Source of the DNA: Bordetella bronchialis
Lineage (GTDB): Bacteria > Pseudomonadota > Gammaproteobacteria > Burkholderiales > Burkholderiaceae_B
Direction: 5' to 3'
Length of the DNA: 64,000 nt
Assembly (NCBI RefSeq): GCF_001676705.1
Contig: NZ_CP016170.1
Location: 5,270,001-5,334,000, forward strand
Every line of letters starts with the position of its first letter. Positions within the stretch are counted from its first letter, which is position 1. The notes under the pieces are model-generated. The model did no database searches and had not been told where the DNA came from. It saw only the letters and a program-made list of their open reading frames with translations. The position numbers and the translations under genes were made by a program. This document shows, piece by piece, positions 2,856-64,000 of this stretch.

Positions 2856-3992
2856 CTAGGCCTTCACGGAACGATGCCGGTTGACACTCATCAGCATGCC
2901 GCAGGCGACACCCACGGTAAGCAAGGCTGTCCCGCCATAGCTCATGAATGGCAACGGCACCCCCACCACGGGCAGGATCCCCGTCACCATGCCGATGTTC
3001 ACGAACACATAGATGAAGAACATCATGGTCAGCGATCCGCTGAGCAGCCGGCCGAATTGTGAGGTGGCCCGCGTGGCGATAGTCAGCCCGCGCGCGATCA
3101 GCAGCCCGTACAGCACCAGGATCAGCACGCCGCCATATAGGCCGAACTCCTCGGCATAGACCGCGAAGATGAAGTCGGTGGTGCGTTCCGGGATGAAGTC
3201 CAGGTGCGTCTGGGTGCCCTTCATGTAGCCCTTGCCATACAGGCCGCCCGAGCCCACCGCGATCATGGACTGGATGGTATGGAAGCCCTTCCCCAGGGGA
3301 TCGGAACTGGGATCCAGCAGGGTGCACACGCGGTGCTTCTGGTAGTCGTGCAGGACCACCCAGTCCACCTCGGGCTGGCAAAGCTGGCCTTCGTAGCTGA
3401 CCAGCGTGCCGATGCCGATGACGCCGGCCAGCACCACGGGTATCAGCAGCTTGAACGACAAGCCGGCGAAGTAGATGACGCAGAAGCCGGCGCCGAACAC
3501 CAGCAAGGCGGTGCCCAGGTCGGGCTGCCGAACGATCAGCAGGAAGGGCACGCCCAGGAGCACCGCGGCGAACAGGAAGTCCCGTATGCGGACCTGCCCT
3601 TCGTGCCGCTGGAAGTACCAGGCCAGCATCAGCGGCAGCGCGATCTTCATCATCTCGGAAGGCTGGATGCGCGTGACGCCCAGGTTCAGCCACCGCGTGG
3701 CGCCCTTGCTGGTTTCGCCGAACAGCTCCACGGCCAGCAGCAGCGCCACGCCCAGCACATAGGCGGGCGGCGCCAGCTTCATCAGCATCTTGGGCGGAAT
3801 CAGCGCCACCGCCCACATGGCGAAGAAGGCGATGATGAAATTGCGCGACTGGTCCGCGAAGCGCCAGTCGGTACTGCCGACCGCGGAATGCATGACCGTC
3901 AGGCCCAGGGCCGTCAACAGCAACAGGATGAACAGCAGCGGCCAGTCGAAAACCGTGACCACGCGCAGCAGGATCAGCGCCAGGCGTTTCAT
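2856..3992 (-). CDS. rodA: Peptidoglycan glycosyltransferase RodA (SEDS family)
   Basis: This inner-membrane SEDS glycosyltransferase polymerises lipid II during cell elongation together with PBP2. The 378 residues are mostly hydrophobic and form about ten membrane segments, starting with FDWPLLFILLLLTALGL. Family signatures visible include RIQPSEMMKIALPL, VRQPDLGTALL and the C-terminal PLPFMSYGGTALL. The ATG overlaps the stop of mrdA by four bases (ATGA), indicating translational coupling. It is the last gene of the mreB-mreC-mreD-mrdA-rodA operon. Confidence 0.96.
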   Translation of the reverse strand: MKRLALILLRVVTVFDWPLLFILLLLTALGLTVMHSAVGSTDWRFADQSRNFIIAFFAMWAVALIPPKMLMKLAPPAYVLGVALLLAVELFGETSKGATRWLNLGVTRIQPSEMMKIALPLMLAWYFQRHEGQVRIRDFLFAAVLLGVPFLLIVRQPDLGTALLVFGAGFCVIYFAGLSFKLLIPVVLAGVIGIGTLVSYEGQLCQPEVDWVVLHDYQKHRVCTLLDPSSDPLGKGFHTIQSMIAVGSGGLYGKGYMKGTQTHLDFIPERTTDFIFAVYAEEFGLYGGVLILVLYGLLIARGLTIATRATSQFGRLLSGSLTMMFFIYVFVNIGMVTGILPVVGVPLPFMSYGGTALLTVGVACGMLMSVNRHRSVKA

Positions 3993-10692: not shown

Positions 10693-12147
10693 ATGGAATG
10701 GGAAATCGTCATCGGGCTGGAAACGCATACCCAGCTTTCCACCGAATCCAAGATTTTTTCGGGCAGCAGCACCCGCTTCGGCGCCGCGCCCAATACGCAG
10801 GCGAACCTGGTGGACCTGGCGCTGCCCGGCAGCCTGCCGGTCATGAACCGCGCCGCCGCGGAACGCGCCATCCGCTTCGGGCTGGCCGTCGGCGGCCAGG
10901 TCGCGCCCCGCTCCATCTTCGCGCGCAAGAATTACTTCTACCCCGACCTGCCCAAGGGCTACCAGATCAGCCAGTACGAGATCCCGGTGGTCAGCGGCGG
11001 CACGATTTCCTTCTTCGTCGGCGAAACGCCCAAGACGGTGCGCCTGACCCGCGCCCACCTGGAGGAAGACGCCGGCAAGTCGCTGCACGACGAATTCCAC
11101 CTGGCCAACGGCGCGCCGGCCAGCGGCATCGACCTGAACCGCGCCGGCACGCCCCTGCTGGAAATCGTCAGCGAGCCTGAAATGCGTTCCGCGGCCGAGG
11201 CCGTCGCCTACGCCCGCGCGCTGCACAGCCTGGTGGTGTGGCTTGGCATCTGCGACGGCAACATGCAGGAAGGCTCGTTCCGCTGCGACGCCAACGTATC
11301 GGTGCGCCCCATGGGACAGAAGGAATTCGGCACCCGCACCGAGATCAAGAACGTCAACTCCTTCCGCTTCCTGGAACGCGCCATCGTCTACGAGGCGCGG
11401 CGCCAGATCGAGCTGATCGAGGACGGCGGCACGGTCGTGCAGGAAACCCGCCTGTACGACGCGGACCGCGACGAAACGCGCAGCATGCGCAGCAAGGAAG
11501 ACGCGCACGACTACCGCTACTTCCCGGATCCGGACTTGCCGCCGCTGGTAATTTCCCAGGCCTGGGTCGACGAAGTGCGCGCCACCATGCCAGAGCTGCC
11601 CGCCGACAAGCGCGCCCGCTTCGAAAGCCAGTACGGCCTGTCCGCATACGATGCCGCGCAGCTCACCACCAGCCGTGGCATGGCGGATTACTTCGAAGCC
11701 GTGGCGCGTGCCCTGCCGGACGGCCAGGCCAAGCAGGCGGCCAACTGGATCATGGGCGAACTGGCCGCGGCGCTGAATCGTTCCGAGATCGACGTGGCGG
11801 CATCGCCCGTGGCCGCGCCCGCGCTGGCCGCGCTGATCGCCCGCATCCTGGACGGCACTATCTCCAACAAGATCGCCCGCGAGGTCTTCGCCGGCATGTG
11901 GGCAGGCGAGCAAGGCGGCCAGCCCGACGCCATCATCGAAGCGCGCGGCCTGAAGCAGATCAGCGACACCGGCGCCATCGGCGCCATGATCGACGAGGTG
12001 CTCGCGGCCAACCCTGCCGTGGTAGAGGAATACCGCGCCGGCAAGCAGAAGGCCTTCAACAGCCTGGTCGGCCAGATCATGAAGGCCGCCAAGGGCAAGG
12101 CCAATCCGCAGCAAGTCAACGAGCTGCTGAAGCAGAAGCTGGGCTGA
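10693..12147 (+). CDS. gatB: Glutamyl-/aspartyl-tRNA amidotransferase subunit B
   Basis: This kinase/transamidase subunit of GatCAB phosphorylates the tRNA-bound Glu or Asp and binds the tRNA. The 484 residues open with [20 protein letters not shown] and contain [18 protein letters not shown] and [15 protein letters not shown], the family hallmarks. The C-terminal YqeY/tail domain ends with [14 protein letters not shown]. The stop codon lies inside the first unit of a 15-bp tandem repeat, so the repeat begins within the last two codons. Confidence 0.97.
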
Positions 12148-12199
12148 CCCGCCCGGGGCTGACCTGCCCGGGGCTGACCCGCCCGGGGCTGACCCCAGG
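12141..12199. repeat. 15-bp GC-rich tandem repeat at the end of gatB
   Basis: Three full units and a partial fourth follow one another at 12141, 12156, 12171 and 12186, with consensus GGGCTGACCYGCCCG. The second unit differs by one C-to-T change. The first unit contains the gatB stop codon. After about 12195 the pattern decays but related CCCGGG-containing pieces continue to about 12250, close to the pyrE stop. No coding role is visible; it fills the convergent gatB/pyrE gap. Confidence 0.85.
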
Positions 12200-12260
12200 G
12201 GTCACCTGCCCGGGCCGAGCCGCCCGGGACTGGCCGGCCCGGGCGTCACGCGCCGATCTC

Positions 12261-12941
12261 TCAGGCCGTGACGCCGTACTTCTGGCGATAGGCCAGCACC
12301 GCCTGCCGGTGCTCGGCGAAGTCCGCCGCATTGTCCAGCAGCTTCAGGATATCGGCCAGCGAGGCGATGCTGACCACGGGGATGCCGTAGGTGCGCGCGA
12401 CGTCCTGCACGGCGGAGTGCGCGGACAGCGCATCGTCCGGTCCCGCGCGCTCCATGCGGTCCAGCGCGATCAGGACCGCCGCCGGTTCGGCGCCGGCGGC
12501 GCGGATGATGTCCACGGACTCGCGCACCGAGGTGCCGGCGGTGATGACGTCATCGATGATCACCACCTTGCCCTTGAGCGGCGCGCCCACCAGTACGCCG
12601 CCCTCGCCATGGTCCTTGGCTTCCTTGCGGTTGTAGGCGAAGGGGATGGCGCGGCCGCCCGCGCGGGGATCGGCCGCCAGCGCCATGGCCGTCGCCGTGG
12701 CCAGGGGGATGCCCTTGTAGGCCGGCCCGAACAGCATGTCGAAGGACAGGCCCGAATCCAGCAGCGCCCCTGCGTAGAAGGCGCCCAGGCGATTCATGGA
12801 GGCGCCGTCGCTGAACAGGCCGGCGTTGAAGAAATACGGGCTGATGCGCCCCGATTTGACCTTGAAGCTGCCGAAACGCAGCACGCCCTGGTCCAGGGCG
12901 AAACGGACAAACTCGACGGAAGGGGCGGCGGAAGCGGTCAT
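12261..12941 (-). CDS. pyrE: Orotate phosphoribosyltransferase
   Basis: This enzyme makes orotidine 5'-phosphate from orotate and PRPP in de novo pyrimidine synthesis. The 226-residue protein has the PRPP-binding motif [13 protein letters not shown] (about residues 127-139), an orotate-site segment [12 protein letters not shown] and [10 protein letters not shown] near the N-terminus. The gene converges on gatB and is divergent from the exonuclease III gene, with 111 bases between the two starts. Confidence 0.96.
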
Positions 12942-58308: not shown

Positions 58309-59262
58309 ATGTCTCTTTCCGCCACCGATACCCGCGCCCAGGCCCTGCCCCGGTACAGCGGCATTCCAACCTTTATGCGGGTTCCCCACGCCACGCGGCT
58401 GGAGGACTTCGATATCGCCATCGTGGGCGTGCCCTTCGACGGCGGGGTGACCGCCCGTCCGGGCGCCCGCTACGGCCCCCGCGAGATGCGCAATATGTCG
58501 TCGATGACCCGGGCGATCCATCACGTGACGGGCTTCAATCCCTTCACGGCCTGCCGCGTGGCGGACGTGGGGGACGTACCGTTCACGGATGTTTTCCATC
58601 TGGAAAACTCGCATGCGGATATCCGGCGCTTCCTGGAGCCGCTGTATGCCGCGGGCAAGCGCACGCTGGTGGCCGGCGGCGATCATTCCATCACCTTCCC
58701 GATCTTCCAGGCGATGGCGCCGCGGCCGCCGCTGGGTATGGTGCACATAGACGCCCATACGGATACCTGGGACGATTTCATCGGCTCGAAGTTCAGCCAC
58801 GGGTCACCATTCCGGCGCGCGGTGGAAGCGGGCCTGCTGGATCCCCGGCGCACGGTGCAGATCGGCATACGGGGGGCGCAGAATTCGGACGAGGGATGGC
58901 GTTACTCGCGGGAGACGGGCATGCGGGTAATCTTCATCGAGGAGTTCGACCGTATGGGCGTGGATGCCGCGATCGCGGAGGCGCGCCGGGTGGTCGGCGA
59001 TGGGCCTGCTTATCTATCCGTCGATGTCGACGGGCTGGATCCGGTGTACGCGCCGGGAACGGGGACACCGGAAATCGGCGGGCTGTCGACGCGGGAAACA
59101 CTATCGCTGCTGCGTGGACTGGACGGGCTGGATTTGCTCGGCGCGGACGTTGTGGAAGTGGCGCCGCCTTATGATCCCAGCGGGAATACCGCGCTGCTGG
59201 GGGCTACGTTGATGTATGAATGCTTGTGCTTATTGGCACGGGGGTGGATCGGGCGGGGGTGA
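58309..59262 (+). CDS. Ureohydrolase of the agmatinase/guanidinobutyrase family
   Basis: This 317-residue Mn-dependent enzyme releases urea from a guanidino compound. The three metal motifs GGDHSITFP, DAHTDTWDD and SVDVDGLDP are complete, and GTGTPEIGGLSTRETLSLLR is typical of agmatinase-like members rather than arginase. Candidate substrates are agmatine, guanidinobutyrate, guanidinopropionate or guanidine itself. It starts two bases after the regulator and is the last gene of the operon. Confidence 0.92.
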   Translation: MSLSATDTRAQALPRYSGIPTFMRVPHATRLEDFDIAIVGVPFDGGVTARPGARYGPREMRNMSSMTRAIHHVTGFNPFTACRVADVGDVPFTDVFHLENSHADIRRFLEPLYAAGKRTLVAGGDHSITFPIFQAMAPRPPLGMVHIDAHTDTWDDFIGSKFSHGSPFRRAVEAGLLDPRRTVQIGIRGAQNSDEGWRYSRETGMRVIFIEEFDRMGVDAAIAEARRVVGDGPAYLSVDVDGLDPVYAPGTGTPEIGGLSTRETLSLLRGLDGLDLLGADVVEVAPPYDPSGNTALLGATLMYECLCLLARGWIGRG

Positions 59263-59655
59263 TGCTGGCGGCCGGATGGATGGATGGATGGCGCTGCGAC
59301 GGTTGTCTTGCTCATGGCGTTCCTTTGATCCTGCGTCGGTTGTCTTGCTCATGCCGTCCGTCGGGGGAGATGCCTGTCGTGTCCGGCCCGCTCGGACGGT
59401 CCAGGGCCTTCGCCCTGGACTGCCGCTTCGCCTTCCTCCTTCGGCGGCCGAAGTGGCGGTGTTTTTCTTGCGCCTTTTTTGCCCGGCCGTCCTACGTACG
59501 GAAGCCCTCGCGCGCCCTCGGACGGGCCGGCCCCGACAGGCATCTCCCCCGCCGGACTCACGGGGTGCCTTAGAGTCGGTCGCTGGGACGGTATGTGTGC
59601 TTGGCACTTCGTGGGGCGTTTGTCGCTTGATAAGAAGAATCTTCGGGTGCCCGCC

Positions 59656-59686
59656 GGTTCGGAGCCGCCCTGCGCGGCTCCGAACC
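59656..59686 (+). other. Hairpin in the left arm
   Basis: GGTTCGGAGCCGC pairs with GCGGCTCCGAACC around the loop CCTGC; the pairing extends three more bases on each side. The mirrored hairpin at 60317-60347 keeps the loop and inner stem but has a different outer stem. Confidence 0.85.
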
Positions 59687-59784
59687 GGCTACGCGGCGGT
59701 GGCTTGCGGCGGGTGCACGCCTGCGATGGTTCTGCGCCCGGAGTGGAAGCGTTGCCTGCGCAGATTGGGGGGAGAAACAAGTCG

Positions 59785-60077
59785 GTGTGGCGGGCCGCCA
59801 GCCGGCCCGCCACACCGTAGGCACCGTGGCATGCCGCGGATGCTGGCGTAGGTGCCACGCGCCGCTAGCGCGATTGCACGCACCGTTTCCTATCGAATCG
59901 CGGCCGGGCCACCCCCAATGCCGAGGGTGTCAGAAATTTTGTGTGCGGGCCGCCAGCCGGCCCGCCACACCGTAGGCATCGTGGCATGCCACGGATGCTG
60001 GCGTAGGTACCATGCGCCGCTAGCGCGATTGCACGCACCGTTTCCTATCGAATCGCGGCCGGGCCACCCCCAATGCC
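59785..60077 (+). repeat. Direct repeat, two copies of about 137 bp at the centre of the palindrome
   Basis: Copy 1 (59785-59922) and copy 2 (59941-60077) differ by one deletion and about four transitions. Each opens with a hairpin of GGGCCGCCAGCCGGCCC type within GTGTGGCGGG/CCCGCCACAC flanks and ends CGGCCGGGCCACCCCCAATGCC. A third start of the unit occurs at 60100 as hairpin only, giving a period of about 157 bases. Confidence 0.88.
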
Positions 60078-60188
60078 CGTGGCAAGGCACGGTGCTACGG
60101 TGTGGCGGGCCGGCGGGCGGCCCGCCACACCGCCTTGTTTCCCCCCACCCTGCGCGGGCCGAGATTCCACTTTGATTCCCCGACCTAC

Positions 60189-60295
60189 GCATTACCAGCA
60201 ACCGTTGCATCACCAGCAACCGTCGGATTACCAGCAACCGTCCATTACAGACAACCGTCGCATTACCTGCGACCGTGGCGTTACCGGCAACCACC
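60189..60295 (+). repeat. 18-bp tandem array inside the palindrome
   Basis: Six units with consensus GCATTACCAGCAACCGTC run from 60189 to 60295, the fourth one base short. Similarity is highest in the first three and decays to the right. It is present only in the right arm and accounts for most of the length difference of the inner arms. There are no non-repeat spacers, so it is not a CRISPR array. Confidence 0.85.
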
Positions 60296-60316
60296 GCATG
60301 CCCTGACCGCGTAGGC

Positions 60317-60347
60317 GTTTTAGGGCCGCGCAGGGCGGCCCTAAAAC
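60317..60347 (-). other. Hairpin in the right arm, stem changed by compensatory substitutions
   Basis: On the minus strand GTTTTAGGGCCGC pairs with GCGGCCCTAAAAC around the loop CCTGC. It is the mirror partner of 59656-59686: at six or more stem positions both sides differ, yet pairing is complete. The inner CCGC/GCGG and loop are identical. Confidence 0.85.
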
Positions 60348-60648
60348 GACGGGCAACAGAAGCTCTTTCCTACCCCGAAAACGCGACCCACGAAGGGCCA
60401 AGAACAAAGACCGCCCCAGCGACCGGCTCTAAGGCACCCCGTGAGTCCGGCGGGGGAGATGCCTGGCGGGGCCGGCCCGTCCGAGGGCGCGCGAGGGCTT
60501 CCGTACGTAGGACGGCCGGGCAAAAAAGCCGCAAGAAAAACACCGCCCCTTCGGCCGCCGAAGGAGGAAGGCGAAGCGGCAGTCCAGGGCGAAGGCCCTG
60601 GACCGCCCGAGCGGGCCGGACACGACAGGCATCTCCACCGACGGACGG

Positions 60649-60730
60649 CATGAGCAAGACAACCGACGCAGGCACCATCAAAGGAACGCCATGAGCAAGA
60701 CAACCAACGCAGGCACCATCAAGGGAACGG
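60649..60730 (+). repeat. 41-bp tandem repeat at the right edge of the palindrome
   Basis: Two units start at 60649 and 60690 with CATGAGCAAGACAACC and are followed by a third start CATGAAGCC at 60731. They differ at a few positions. The left edge of the palindrome (59301-59355) holds a mirrored, partly deleted version. From 60731 to 60870 I see no gene or further repeat. Confidence 0.8.
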
Positions 60731-60870
60731 CATGAAGCCCCCCACCGACAGCACTCAACCAGAACGGCCGTAGCAAGACGCCCCGCGACACCCCCGCCCC
60801 CCGCATCTCCAAGCCGCTAAGAGCAGTACAGCCCCCCGACGGCCATTGACCGCGATGACAGCAAGGACCG

Positions 60871-63800
60871 TCAGCCCAAGACCGGTCCCAATGTGCGCCG
60901 TACGTCTTCCTCGCTGCGTCCGCTGCGCGCGATGTAGTCGCGCAGCTGATCTTCCCCTATGGTGCCGACGTTGAAGTATTGGGAATCGGGGTGGCTGAGA
61001 TAGAAGCCGCAGACGCTGGAAGCAGGGAACATCGCGTAGCTCTCGGTCAGGTCGATGCCGACATCGGCCGCATCCAGGACCTCGAACATCTCGCGCTTGA
61101 CCACGTGTTCCGGGCAGGCGGGATAACCCGGCGCGGGCCGGATGCCCACGTATTTTTCGGCGATCAGCGCGTTGTTGTCGAGCGACTCGTCCGCCGCATA
61201 GCCCCACAGGTCGCGCCGCACCCGCGCGTGCAGGCATTCGGTATAGGCCTCGGCCAGGCGGTCCGCCAGCGCCTTCAGCATGATGCTGGAATAGTCGTCG
61301 TTCGCCGCCGCGAACTCGGCTTCCTTCTTCTCGATTCCCAAGCCGGCGGTCACCGCGAACAGCCCGATGTAGTCGGCCACGCCGCTTTCCTTCGGCGCGA
61401 CATAGTCAGCCAGGCACTTGTTGGACACGCCTTCGCGCTTGGCACCCTGCTGCCGCAGATTGCGCCACGTGAACAGCACGCGCGAGCGGCTGTCGTCGGC
61501 GTAGACCTCGATGTCCTCGTCGTTCACGCGGTTGGCCGGATAGAAGGCGATCACGCCGTTGGCGGTCAGCCAGCGGCCCTCGACGATGCGCTTGAGCATC
61601 GCTTGCGCGTCCGCGTACACCTTGCGGGCCTGCTCGCCCACCACCTTGTCGTCCAGGATGGCCGGGAACTGGCCGAACAGGCTCCAGGTCTGGAAGAACG
61701 GCGTCCAGTCGATATAGGTCGCGATCTCGGCCAGGTCGTAGTGCTTGAACGTGCGGCGGCCGATGTACTTCGGCCGTGGCGGCACATAGGCGGACCAGTC
61801 GATGGCCGGGCGCGCCGCGCGGGCCTCCGCCAGCGGGATCAGCGGCGTCGCCTTGCGGTTCGCATGGCGGCGGCGCACGTCTTCGTACTCGCGCTTCAGG
61901 TCGTCGATAAAGGCCTGCGCCTGGTCGGACACCAGATTGGTCGCCACCCCCACCGCACGGCTGGCGTCCGGTGTGTAGACGACCGGCCCTTCGTAATTGG
62001 GCGCGATCTTCACCGCCGTATGCACGCGGCTCGTCGTCGCCCCGCCTATCATCAGCGGAATGCGGCGCTCGCGGAAGTATTCGTCGCGCTGCATCTCGCT
62101 GGCGACGTAGGCCATTTCCTCCAGGCTGGGCGTGATCAGGCCCGACAGGCCGATGATGTCCGCGTTCTCCTGCTTGGCTTTCTCCAGGATCTGCGCGCAG
62201 GGCACCATCACGCCCATGTTCACGACCTCGAAGTTATTGCACTGGAGGACCACCGACACGATATTTTTGCCGATGTCGTGCACATCGCCCTTGACCGTGG
62301 CAATGACCATTTTGCCCTTGGCGCGCACATCGCCGCCCGCGGCGGCGATCTGGCGTTTTTCTTCCTCGATGAAGGGCACCAGGTGGGCCACGGCCTGCTT
62401 CATCACGCGGGCGGATTTCACCACCTGCGGCAGGAACATTTTGCCCTCGCCGAACAGGTCGCCGACGATATTCATGCCGTCCATCAGCGGGCCTTCGATC
62501 ACCTCGATCGGGCGGCCGCCGCGCCCGGCGATCTGCTGCCGCACCTCTTCGGTGTCCTCGACGATGAAAGTCGTGATGCCATGCACCAGCGCGTGCGCCA
62601 GCCGCTGTTCGACCGGCTGGGCGCGCCAGGCCAGGTCTTCTTCCTTCTTGGCGCCGCTGCCCTTGATGGTGTCGGCGAACTGCACCAGGCGTTCCGTGGG
62701 CGTGCGGTCGTCGGCATCGTCGGTCTTGCCCAGCGGCTCGGCGCGGTCCAGCACCACGTCCTCTACCAGGTCGCGCAGCTTGGGATCCAGGTCGGCATAC
62801 ACGCCCAGCTGGCCGGCATTGACGATGCCCATCGTCAGGCCCTCGCGGATCGCGTAGTACAGGAACACCGTGTGGATGGCCTCGCGCATCGGCTCGTTGC
62901 CGCGGAACGAAAAACTGACGTTCGAGATACCGCCCGACAGGCGGGCATGCGGCAGGTTCTGGCGGATCCAGGTGACGCTTTCGATGAAATCCAGCGCGTA
63001 GCGGTTGTGCTCTTCGATCCCCGTGGCCACGGCGAACACGTTGGGATCGAAAATGATGTCCTCGGGATTGAAGCCTTCCTGATTGACCAGCAGGTCATAG
63101 GCGCGGCCGCAGATTTCCTTGCGGCGCTCCAGCGTATCGGCCTGGCCCTGCTCGTCGAAGGCCATGACCACCATGGCGGCGCCGTAGCGGCGGCACAGGC
63201 GCGCGTGATGAAGGAAGGGCTCGATGCCTTCTTTCATCGAGATGGAATTGACCACGGCCTTGCCCTGCACGCACTTCAGCCCGGCCTCGATCACTTCCCA
63301 CTTGGAGCTGTCTATCATCACCGGCACGCGGGCAATATCCGGCTCGGAAGCGATCAGGTTCAGGAAACGCGTCATGCAGGCCACCGAATCCAGCATGGCC
63401 TCGTCCATGTTGACGTCGATGATCTGCGCGCCGTTTTCCACCTGCTGGCGCGCCACCGCCAGCGCCTCGTCGTATTTTTCCTCGCGGATCAGGCGCGCGA
63501 ACATCTTGCTGCCCGTCACGTTGGTGCGCTCGCCGACGTTGACGAACAGCGTGTCCTCGTCGATGTTCAGCGGCTCCAGCCCCGACAGGCGCGTCTTGAC
63601 CGGCACCTCGGGCACCGCGCGGGGCGTCAGGTTCACCACGCGGCGCGCGATGGCGGCGATGTGGTCCGGCGTCGTGCCGCAGCAGCCGCCCGCCATGTTC
63701 ACCAGGCCGGCGCGCGCGAACTCTTCCAGCAGGCCGGAGGTGTCGTCCGGCGACTCGTCGAAGCCGGTATCGCTCATGGGATTGGGCAGGCCGGCGTTCG

Positions 63801-64000
63801 GGTACACGCAAACGTAGGTGTCGCAGATCTTCGACAATTCGGCGACATAGGGGCGCATCAGCGCCGCGCCCAGCGCGCAGTTCAGGCCGATGGTCACGGG
63901 CCGCGCGTGGCGCACCGAATTCCAGAAGGCCTCCACCGTCTGGCCGGACAGGATGCGGCCGGAGGCGTCCGTCACCGTGCCGGAGATCATCACGGGCAGG
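60871..64000 (-). CDS. metH: Cobalamin-dependent methionine synthase MetH (N-terminus beyond the window)
   Basis: About 1043 codons are visible; the frame is open to the right edge, so roughly the first 200 residues are missing. The homocysteine domain has its zinc cysteines in [10 protein letters not shown] and [12 protein letters not shown]. The pterin domain follows ([29 protein letters not shown]). The cobalamin domain has the base-off motif [11 protein letters not shown] and [10 protein letters not shown]. The reactivation domain has [20 protein letters not shown]. It makes methionine from homocysteine and methyl-THF, complementing metX-metW in this genome. It ends at the palindrome. Confidence 0.97.

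Follow-up and report, generated by a model that had tools for sequence, protein, structure and literature searches.

The palindrome between an arginase-family gene and metH in the 64,000-nt stretch of Bordetella bronchialis DNA analysed here (the window) consists of two copies, placed back to back, of a dispersed, multi-copy, structured chromosomal element, each arm being one copy. Because most element loci in two related genomes, G028 and G057, contain only one copy of the large stem (24 of 32 and 16 of 22 loci, respectively), the unit is taken to be a single arm and the palindrome a pair of units. The sequence-only reading of this DNA had treated the long palindrome as the functional unit, a view that is not supported. 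Its suggestion that selection or an element with its own biology accounts for the persistence of the palindrome fared better, as the local stems covary and the family recurs in many genomes.

Architecture of the palindrome

Self-BLAST confirmed that the palindrome is real. The full arms (Table 1) align over 437 columns with 88.8% identity, and this pair has an E value of 3e-160 in an inverted-repeat scan that covered the window completely in 6-kb tiles; all 7 of its hits with a bit score of at least 45 fall within the palindrome structure. The two near-identical inverted arms in register that the sequence-only reading described, with coordinates correct to within a few bases, were recovered as ungapped inner blocks of 289 nt each, 96% complementary and separated by a spacer of 765 nt. 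A further inner inverted pair, 59742-59839 with 60077-60171 (84.7%), was detected by both self-BLAST and the tiled scan. The centre is filled with repeats, as had been claimed, and consists of a direct duplication of 133 nt (97%; spacing 155 nt), a hairpin present three times and 18-nt tandem repeats, and the two neighbouring genes do converge on it. At its outer end each arm carries a short tandem duplication of 37 nt on the left and 41 nt on the right (window 59294-59357 and 60645-60726). An assembly artefact is very unlikely as the source of the palindrome, judging from the equal architecture found at many loci of other genomes.

Hereafter, the strand that leads from the middle of the palindrome to the neighbouring gene is called the outward strand, the large gene-adjacent stem of an arm is called P1, and the small hairpin further in is called P3. 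An arm of about 350-430 bp thus comprises a P1 stem of about 34 bp around a core, the P1 domain being 160-200 nt, followed by P3 towards the centre.

Table 1. Features of the palindrome and its neighbours (window coordinates)
Feature	Position	Strand	Basis or remark
Arginase-family (ureohydrolase) gene, left convergent neighbour	58309..59262	+	PF00491; open frame; stop at 59262
Left arm, one element copy, read from the arginase-family gene inwards	59287..59716	+	self-BLAST; homologous to dispersed arms of G105 and G106
Left-arm ungapped 96% block	59330..59618		partner 60384-60672
P1 domain, left arm, outward strand	59356..59557	-	stem halves 59356-59390 and 59523-59557; R1 158.4 bits (row belongs to the building set of R1); covariation
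Inner hairpin of left P1 core	59399..59420		read from sequence
P3 hairpin, left arm, 16-bp stem	59653..59689		P3 covariation in 32 arms
Central hairpin, 15-bp stem	59783..59817		related copies 59938-59972 and 60098-60132
Central direct duplication	59790..60077	+	59790-59922 and 59945-60077, 97%
18-nt tandem repeats (family D1), central hairpin to right arm	60183..60317	+	
Right arm, second copy, inverted, read from metH inwards	60287..60720	-	self-BLAST; homologous to dispersed arms
P3 hairpin, right arm, 14-bp stem, sequence unlike left P3	60316..60348		inverted-repeat scans
Right-arm ungapped 96% block	60384..60672		partner 59330-59618
P1 domain, right arm, outward strand	60445..60646	+	stem halves 60445-60479 and 60612-60646; R1 148.5 bits (row belongs to the building set of R1)
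Inner hairpin of right P1 core	60582..60603		read from sequence
metH (B12-dependent methionine synthase), right convergent neighbour	60871..63993	-	stop at 60871; 5' end may extend past the window

Copies and pairs in related genomes

A scan for the arginase-family protein gave 33 loci, including Achromobacter marplatensis (L001, genome G001) and three Bordetella (G002-G004). The arm had no DNA match in these four genomes, nor did the palindrome match in any of 15 genomes belonging to the same genus as G002. Judged by the end of metH, the nearest of 268 family genomes are G105 (metH 88%) and G106 (84%), in which BLAST of the arm gave 62 and 26 matches, respectively (both strands counted). Among six other genomes, three gave one weak match and three gave none. 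In the comparison of an arm with relatives, which the sequence-only reading had proposed, the arm is dispersed in G105 and G106, and is absent by DNA match from G001-G004.

Copies were then counted with two covariance models of P1, R1 and R2. With R1, 24 P1 domains scored above 100 bits in G105, forming 10 pairs and 4 lone P1, one of which (L092) has a partner split by an insertion sequence; in G106 the same threshold gave 17 domains in 6 pairs and 5 singles. With R2, at least 40 P1 (8 pairs and 24 singles) were found in G028 and at least 28 (6 pairs and 16 singles) in G057, these counts being lower bounds as 150 of more than 11,000 candidates were scored per genome. For the single loci the search was repeated at E 0.001 using R1 as well as R2. 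Across the family, scoring 9 candidates per genome gave matches at E 1e-4 in 63 of 268 genomes, with A. marplatensis accounting for 8 matches. R2 matched in 0/15 genomes of the G002 genus. A second P1 was present in 11 of the 28 loci L106-L133, and in all 11 the P1 point outward; one locus (L123) duplicates a G057 pair.

The arrangement of neighbouring copies is strict. All 31 close pairs of five genomes (31/31) have the same orientation, with P1 outward, and no listed element of G105, G106, G028 or G057 has a neighbour within 4 kb that is oriented in a different way. Since the pairs share one orientation, they are not random double insertions. The sequence-only reading had held that arms occurring as dispersed repeats would mean two independent insertions; the dispersal proved correct, and the independence did not.

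Some further observations were made on the distribution. Element loci lie in the origin-proximal half of the chromosome in 12 of 14 cases in G105, 17 of 22 in G057 and 28 of 32 in G028, but in 5 of 11 in G106, with the origin placed by the dnaA motif at the contig start in G105, G057 and G106 and by synteny in G028 (dnaA was not seen in L196). The gatB-pyrE junction carries an element pair in G106 and short GC-rich repeats in the window (12147-12261). A separate repeat family occurs in L093 of G105 (656-999 and 3375-3500), where three direct repeats of about 105 bp have an inverted relative about 2.4 kb off. A lack of SbcCD was considered in connection with palindrome stability, and the SbcD profile TIGR00619 matched in 4/4 genomes, above its cut-off in 0/4. 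At G105:C1:399957-404000 (L187), an ORF of 384 aa that matches SbcD below the cut-off precedes a large ORF; the two may encode an SbcCD-like exonuclease, and by eye they resemble a YhaO/YhaN-type pair.

Structure and strand of the element

The fold was determined from an alignment of 32 arms (A1), which excluded the L086 and L092 arms and one L095 arm. P1 is formed by columns 17-51 with 186-220 and P3 by columns 323-333 with 339-349. In this alignment 229 cells had changed on both sides of a pair, compared with 69.2 in shuffles, and the covariation score was 0.348 versus 0.099, a value reached by 0 of 500 shuffles, which take no account of kinship among the arms. The named structure also scored above slid controls. 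Further pair types were slightly more frequent than in shuffles (58 versus 50.2; 3 of 500 as high). Pairing was retained in 97.0% of cells in the P1 helix and 95.5% in P3, the overall value of 92.2% being lowered by helix 2, which was set one column off.

The sequence of the stem is free, although its pairing is kept. In G028 and G057, stems taken from different loci have a mean similarity of 47-50%, yet 20 of the 68 stems of these genomes have no non-Watson-Crick position at all, with 28 having one. When arms were compared between G057 and G028 (12 comparisons; in nine, from seven locus pairs, both flanks match, and in three one flank does), stem identity was 0.55-0.74 (median 0.60) and core identity 0.73-0.97 (median 0.82), and both stems were nearly fully paired in each comparison. 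The intergenic DNA next to the stems also aligns poorly between the two genomes, and for this reason the stem seems to drift like unconstrained DNA yet to stay paired; exchange with other loci could contribute to the divergence. Wide variation between loci, maintained pairing and covariation together point to selection on structure.

Homogenization of the two arms of a pair was considered and is not supported. Partner arms are 63-96% alike in 16 pairs (80-96% in 13 of them), and the partner is the closest arm of the genome for only 5 of 20 arms in G105 and 1 of 10 in G106; identity within pairs and between loci is 0.834 versus 0.811 in G106 and 0.841 versus 0.764 in G105. The high arm identity in the window may be a local event. 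Protein coding was rejected: overlapping ORFs are present on both strands of the arms, but the paired length changes of the core break the frame (A4, by eye).

The stems themselves are neutral as to RNA or DNA, and we examined their mismatches for an indication of strand. Read on the outward strand, 111 stems contain 3626 Watson-Crick positions, 43 G-U, 8 A-C and 81 other mismatches, every mismatch type having been penalized equally in stem finding. The wobbles are thus scarce and are exceeded by the other mismatches, which weakens the indication. Counted per element, G-U prevails in 34 and A-C in 6, with 71 ties. The asymmetry is seen in the BLAST-found arms of A1 (30 G-U versus 2 A-C) and is weaker in L106-L133 (38 versus 22), where the finder ran into the core. 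The outward strand also folds lower in 90 of the 111 elements, but in only 14 of 24 and 9 of 17 when G105 and G106 are taken alone. A replication bias should cancel, because the arms of a pair occupy opposite chromosome strands. The flanks are skewed too: the first 40 nt past 87 element-bearing stop codons contain 39% G, 34% T, 19% C and 8% A on the gene strand, and are thus C- and A-rich on the outward strand, a skew not present at 123 control stops. If deamination of the gene strand had produced this skew, it should tilt the stems the other way, so that the simpler explanation is selection acting on an RNA of the outward strand. The wobble counts favour an RNA read from the centre outwards, while leaving room for DNA-level roles.

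Possible role of the element and comparison with known systems

Placement relative to genes was classified at 80 loci of five genomes with our own codon-based gene caller, unchecked against annotation. The context is convergent at 52 of the 80 loci (pairs 22/31, singles 30/49) and divergent at 3. In 88 of 111 arms (p 4e-10 versus one half) the outer gene has its 3' end towards the element, usually at 20-110 bp, and in the other 23 it does not. For 16 single copies the two neighbouring genes point the same way; their direction of transcription agrees with the outward strand at 11 of these loci and opposes it at 5.

The placement, the constant orientation and the favoured strand agree with one idea, in which each copy would be the last sequence transcribed before a gene is entered in antisense. 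The reading that we tentatively prefer is that these are paired RNA elements marking 3' boundaries, which would guard convergent genes against antisense read-through. The functional form would be an RNA read from the centre outwards, made just before RNA polymerase would enter the gene in antisense. Its long P1 stem would give the read-through transcript a stable 3' end, as an exonuclease barrier, an RNase III site or both, and Rho would be able to end the transcript in the stretch from P1 to the stop codon, which is rich in C and poor in G and U. Two facing genes would each receive a guard, giving two inverted copies and hence a palindrome, and one copy would suffice where one guard is enough. 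The anatomy, the recurrence and the covariation are shown by the sequences, whereas the existence of the RNA, the action of Rho or an RNase on it and the curbing of antisense transcription are what we infer. P1 is no intrinsic terminator in the outward direction, since the stem lacks a following U-tract (T is 9% in the next 30 nt). A transcript-protecting structure, one of the options of the sequence-only reading, is compatible with the evidence and has become the leading functional class, with guarding as its putative form.

The same hairpins might instead act as ordinary terminators or mRNA stabilizers of the sense transcripts of the flanking genes, read inwards. Every arm starts shortly past a stop codon, the stem can form on either strand, and the terminator-like sites of the window stretch (6 versus 1.2 expected) lie partly on the inward strand of both arms (59458-59474 on the + strand and 60566-60546 on the - strand), which speaks for sense transcripts. 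However, the wobble bias and the flank composition indicate the other strand, and the need for a conserved unit of 350 nt would be left unexplained, so we regard this as improbable. Nearly the same low standing is given to two divergent small RNAs expressed from the centre as independent genes, for example sponging a protein with affinity for the purine-rich core. A conserved core on a variable stem, the preference for the outward strand and copies without a fixed neighbour gene would agree with such genes, but a search for sigma-70-like promoters in the window stretch found none, and P1 hugs the stop codon; at the singles L140 and L155 the other gene ends 55-66 bp away, leaving little room for a promoter.

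An element acting as DNA, either as a BIME-like site for nucleoid proteins or gyrase or as a cruciform handling supercoils between convergent genes, is less probable than guarding but deserves serious consideration. Pairing would then be kept by selection on the DNA hairpin together with template-directed correction of imperfect palindromes, in agreement with the very few wobbles and the many pure Watson-Crick double changes. Convergent placement, the origin-proximal bias in three of four genomes and a weak, sub-threshold match of the central hairpin (59784-59835) to the nucleoid-associated RNA naRNA4 (25.7 bits, cut-off 59.5, E 0.063) point the same way. Against it, the bias of G-U over A-C follows the outward strand in both arms, that is, on opposite chromosome strands, and the flanks are strand-skewed.

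The mobile non-coding repeat proposed by the sequence-only reading, in the form of a MITE- or REP-like repeat moved by a transposase in trans and paired by insertion near an older copy, is the explanation to which we give least credence. It would account for the occupied junctions that differ between the window, G105 and G106, for the pair and single copies found at orthologous loci of G028 and G057, for the two unlike copies at each of L085 and L087, and for the GTAG and CGTC-like tags read by eye beside P3. However, the RAYT/Y1 transposase PF01797 was not found in G105 and G106 (0/2), plasmid and phage searches with the element gave no match, and no target duplication is recognizable, the empty and filled junctions not aligning. 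The conserved terminal inverted repeats of a MITE were likewise not found, the outer stem sequence being variable and no transposase site evident. One 30-base core pattern, the only one tried, had no exact match in viral contigs.

The element is itself a target of insertion. G105 contains a 1382-bp IS256-family element (PF00872), whose 12 matches, with 40 of 74 candidates scored, represent 11 copies, one being interrupted by another. All 11 copies found sit inside element loci. Of the 14 loci, which together span about 20 kb of 5.5 Mb by a rough estimate, 10 are occupied; all of these are pair loci (10 of 11), and the 3 singles carry no copy. The 9 sites examined show 8-bp target duplications without a common motif. 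At L084 (4749-7520), an element pair contains one copy nested, in reverse orientation, in another. A single 201-bp remnant was found in G106, inside the pair at 2687263-2688342. It is conceivable, though less likely than not, that all these features define a new class of boundary element, in which a conserved RNA core on a sequence-free stem, present singly or as mirror pairs, would stop antisense invasion and would serve as the exclusive target of an IS256-family element through its structure or a bound protein. If the guarding role is true, convergent genes in these bacteria would have a dedicated and widespread 3'-boundary structure, and dozens of natural stems per genome would separate pairing from sequence. 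The family would also offer a natural system for long inverted repeats that persist in bacteria and for a transposon apparently choosing structure over sequence.

Rfam gave 8 hits up to E 1 for window 59000-61000, none above its own cut-off (the best, MIR1437, had 44.2 bits versus a cut-off of 168, E 1e-5), and nothing at E 0.01 or better for seven further loci. Searches of the open-licence PMC literature showed no description of the element or its pairs, and on these searches and Rfam rests our statement that it is uncatalogued. The Bor repeats and the Bor-1 and Bor-2 stem-loops of Bordetella, as described in excerpts of PMC1590033 and PMC2267715, are likewise structured repeats near coding ends, Bor-2 being 167 bp with 17 copies; the likeness is one of description, and those excerpts mention no mirror pairs. 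REP-targeting insertion sequences (ISPsy8, ISPa11, ISPpu9/10, ISRm22 and ISRm19) resemble the IS256-family element in having all copies in one kind of palindromic repeat but, according to the available portion of PMC1525189, they insert at a fixed point of the REP, whereas the G105 element inserts at varied places with motif-free duplications. A close parallel is with REP sequences and BIMEs, GTAG- or CGTC-tagged, which in the partial text of PMC3733652 are also intergenic, multi-copy and palindromic and often occur as inverted dimers near convergent 3' ends. By eye, P3 resembles a tagged REP hairpin, and alone it would fit the REP unit of 20-40 bp given there, in contrast to the present element of about 350 nt with its free-sequence stem of about 34 bp and conserved core. 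The CGTC families are said to lack a RAYT transposase too. Multi-copy intergenic palindromes are ordinary, and what is unusual here is a stem free in sequence but paired, a strict mirror pairing and an insertion sequence found only within the element.
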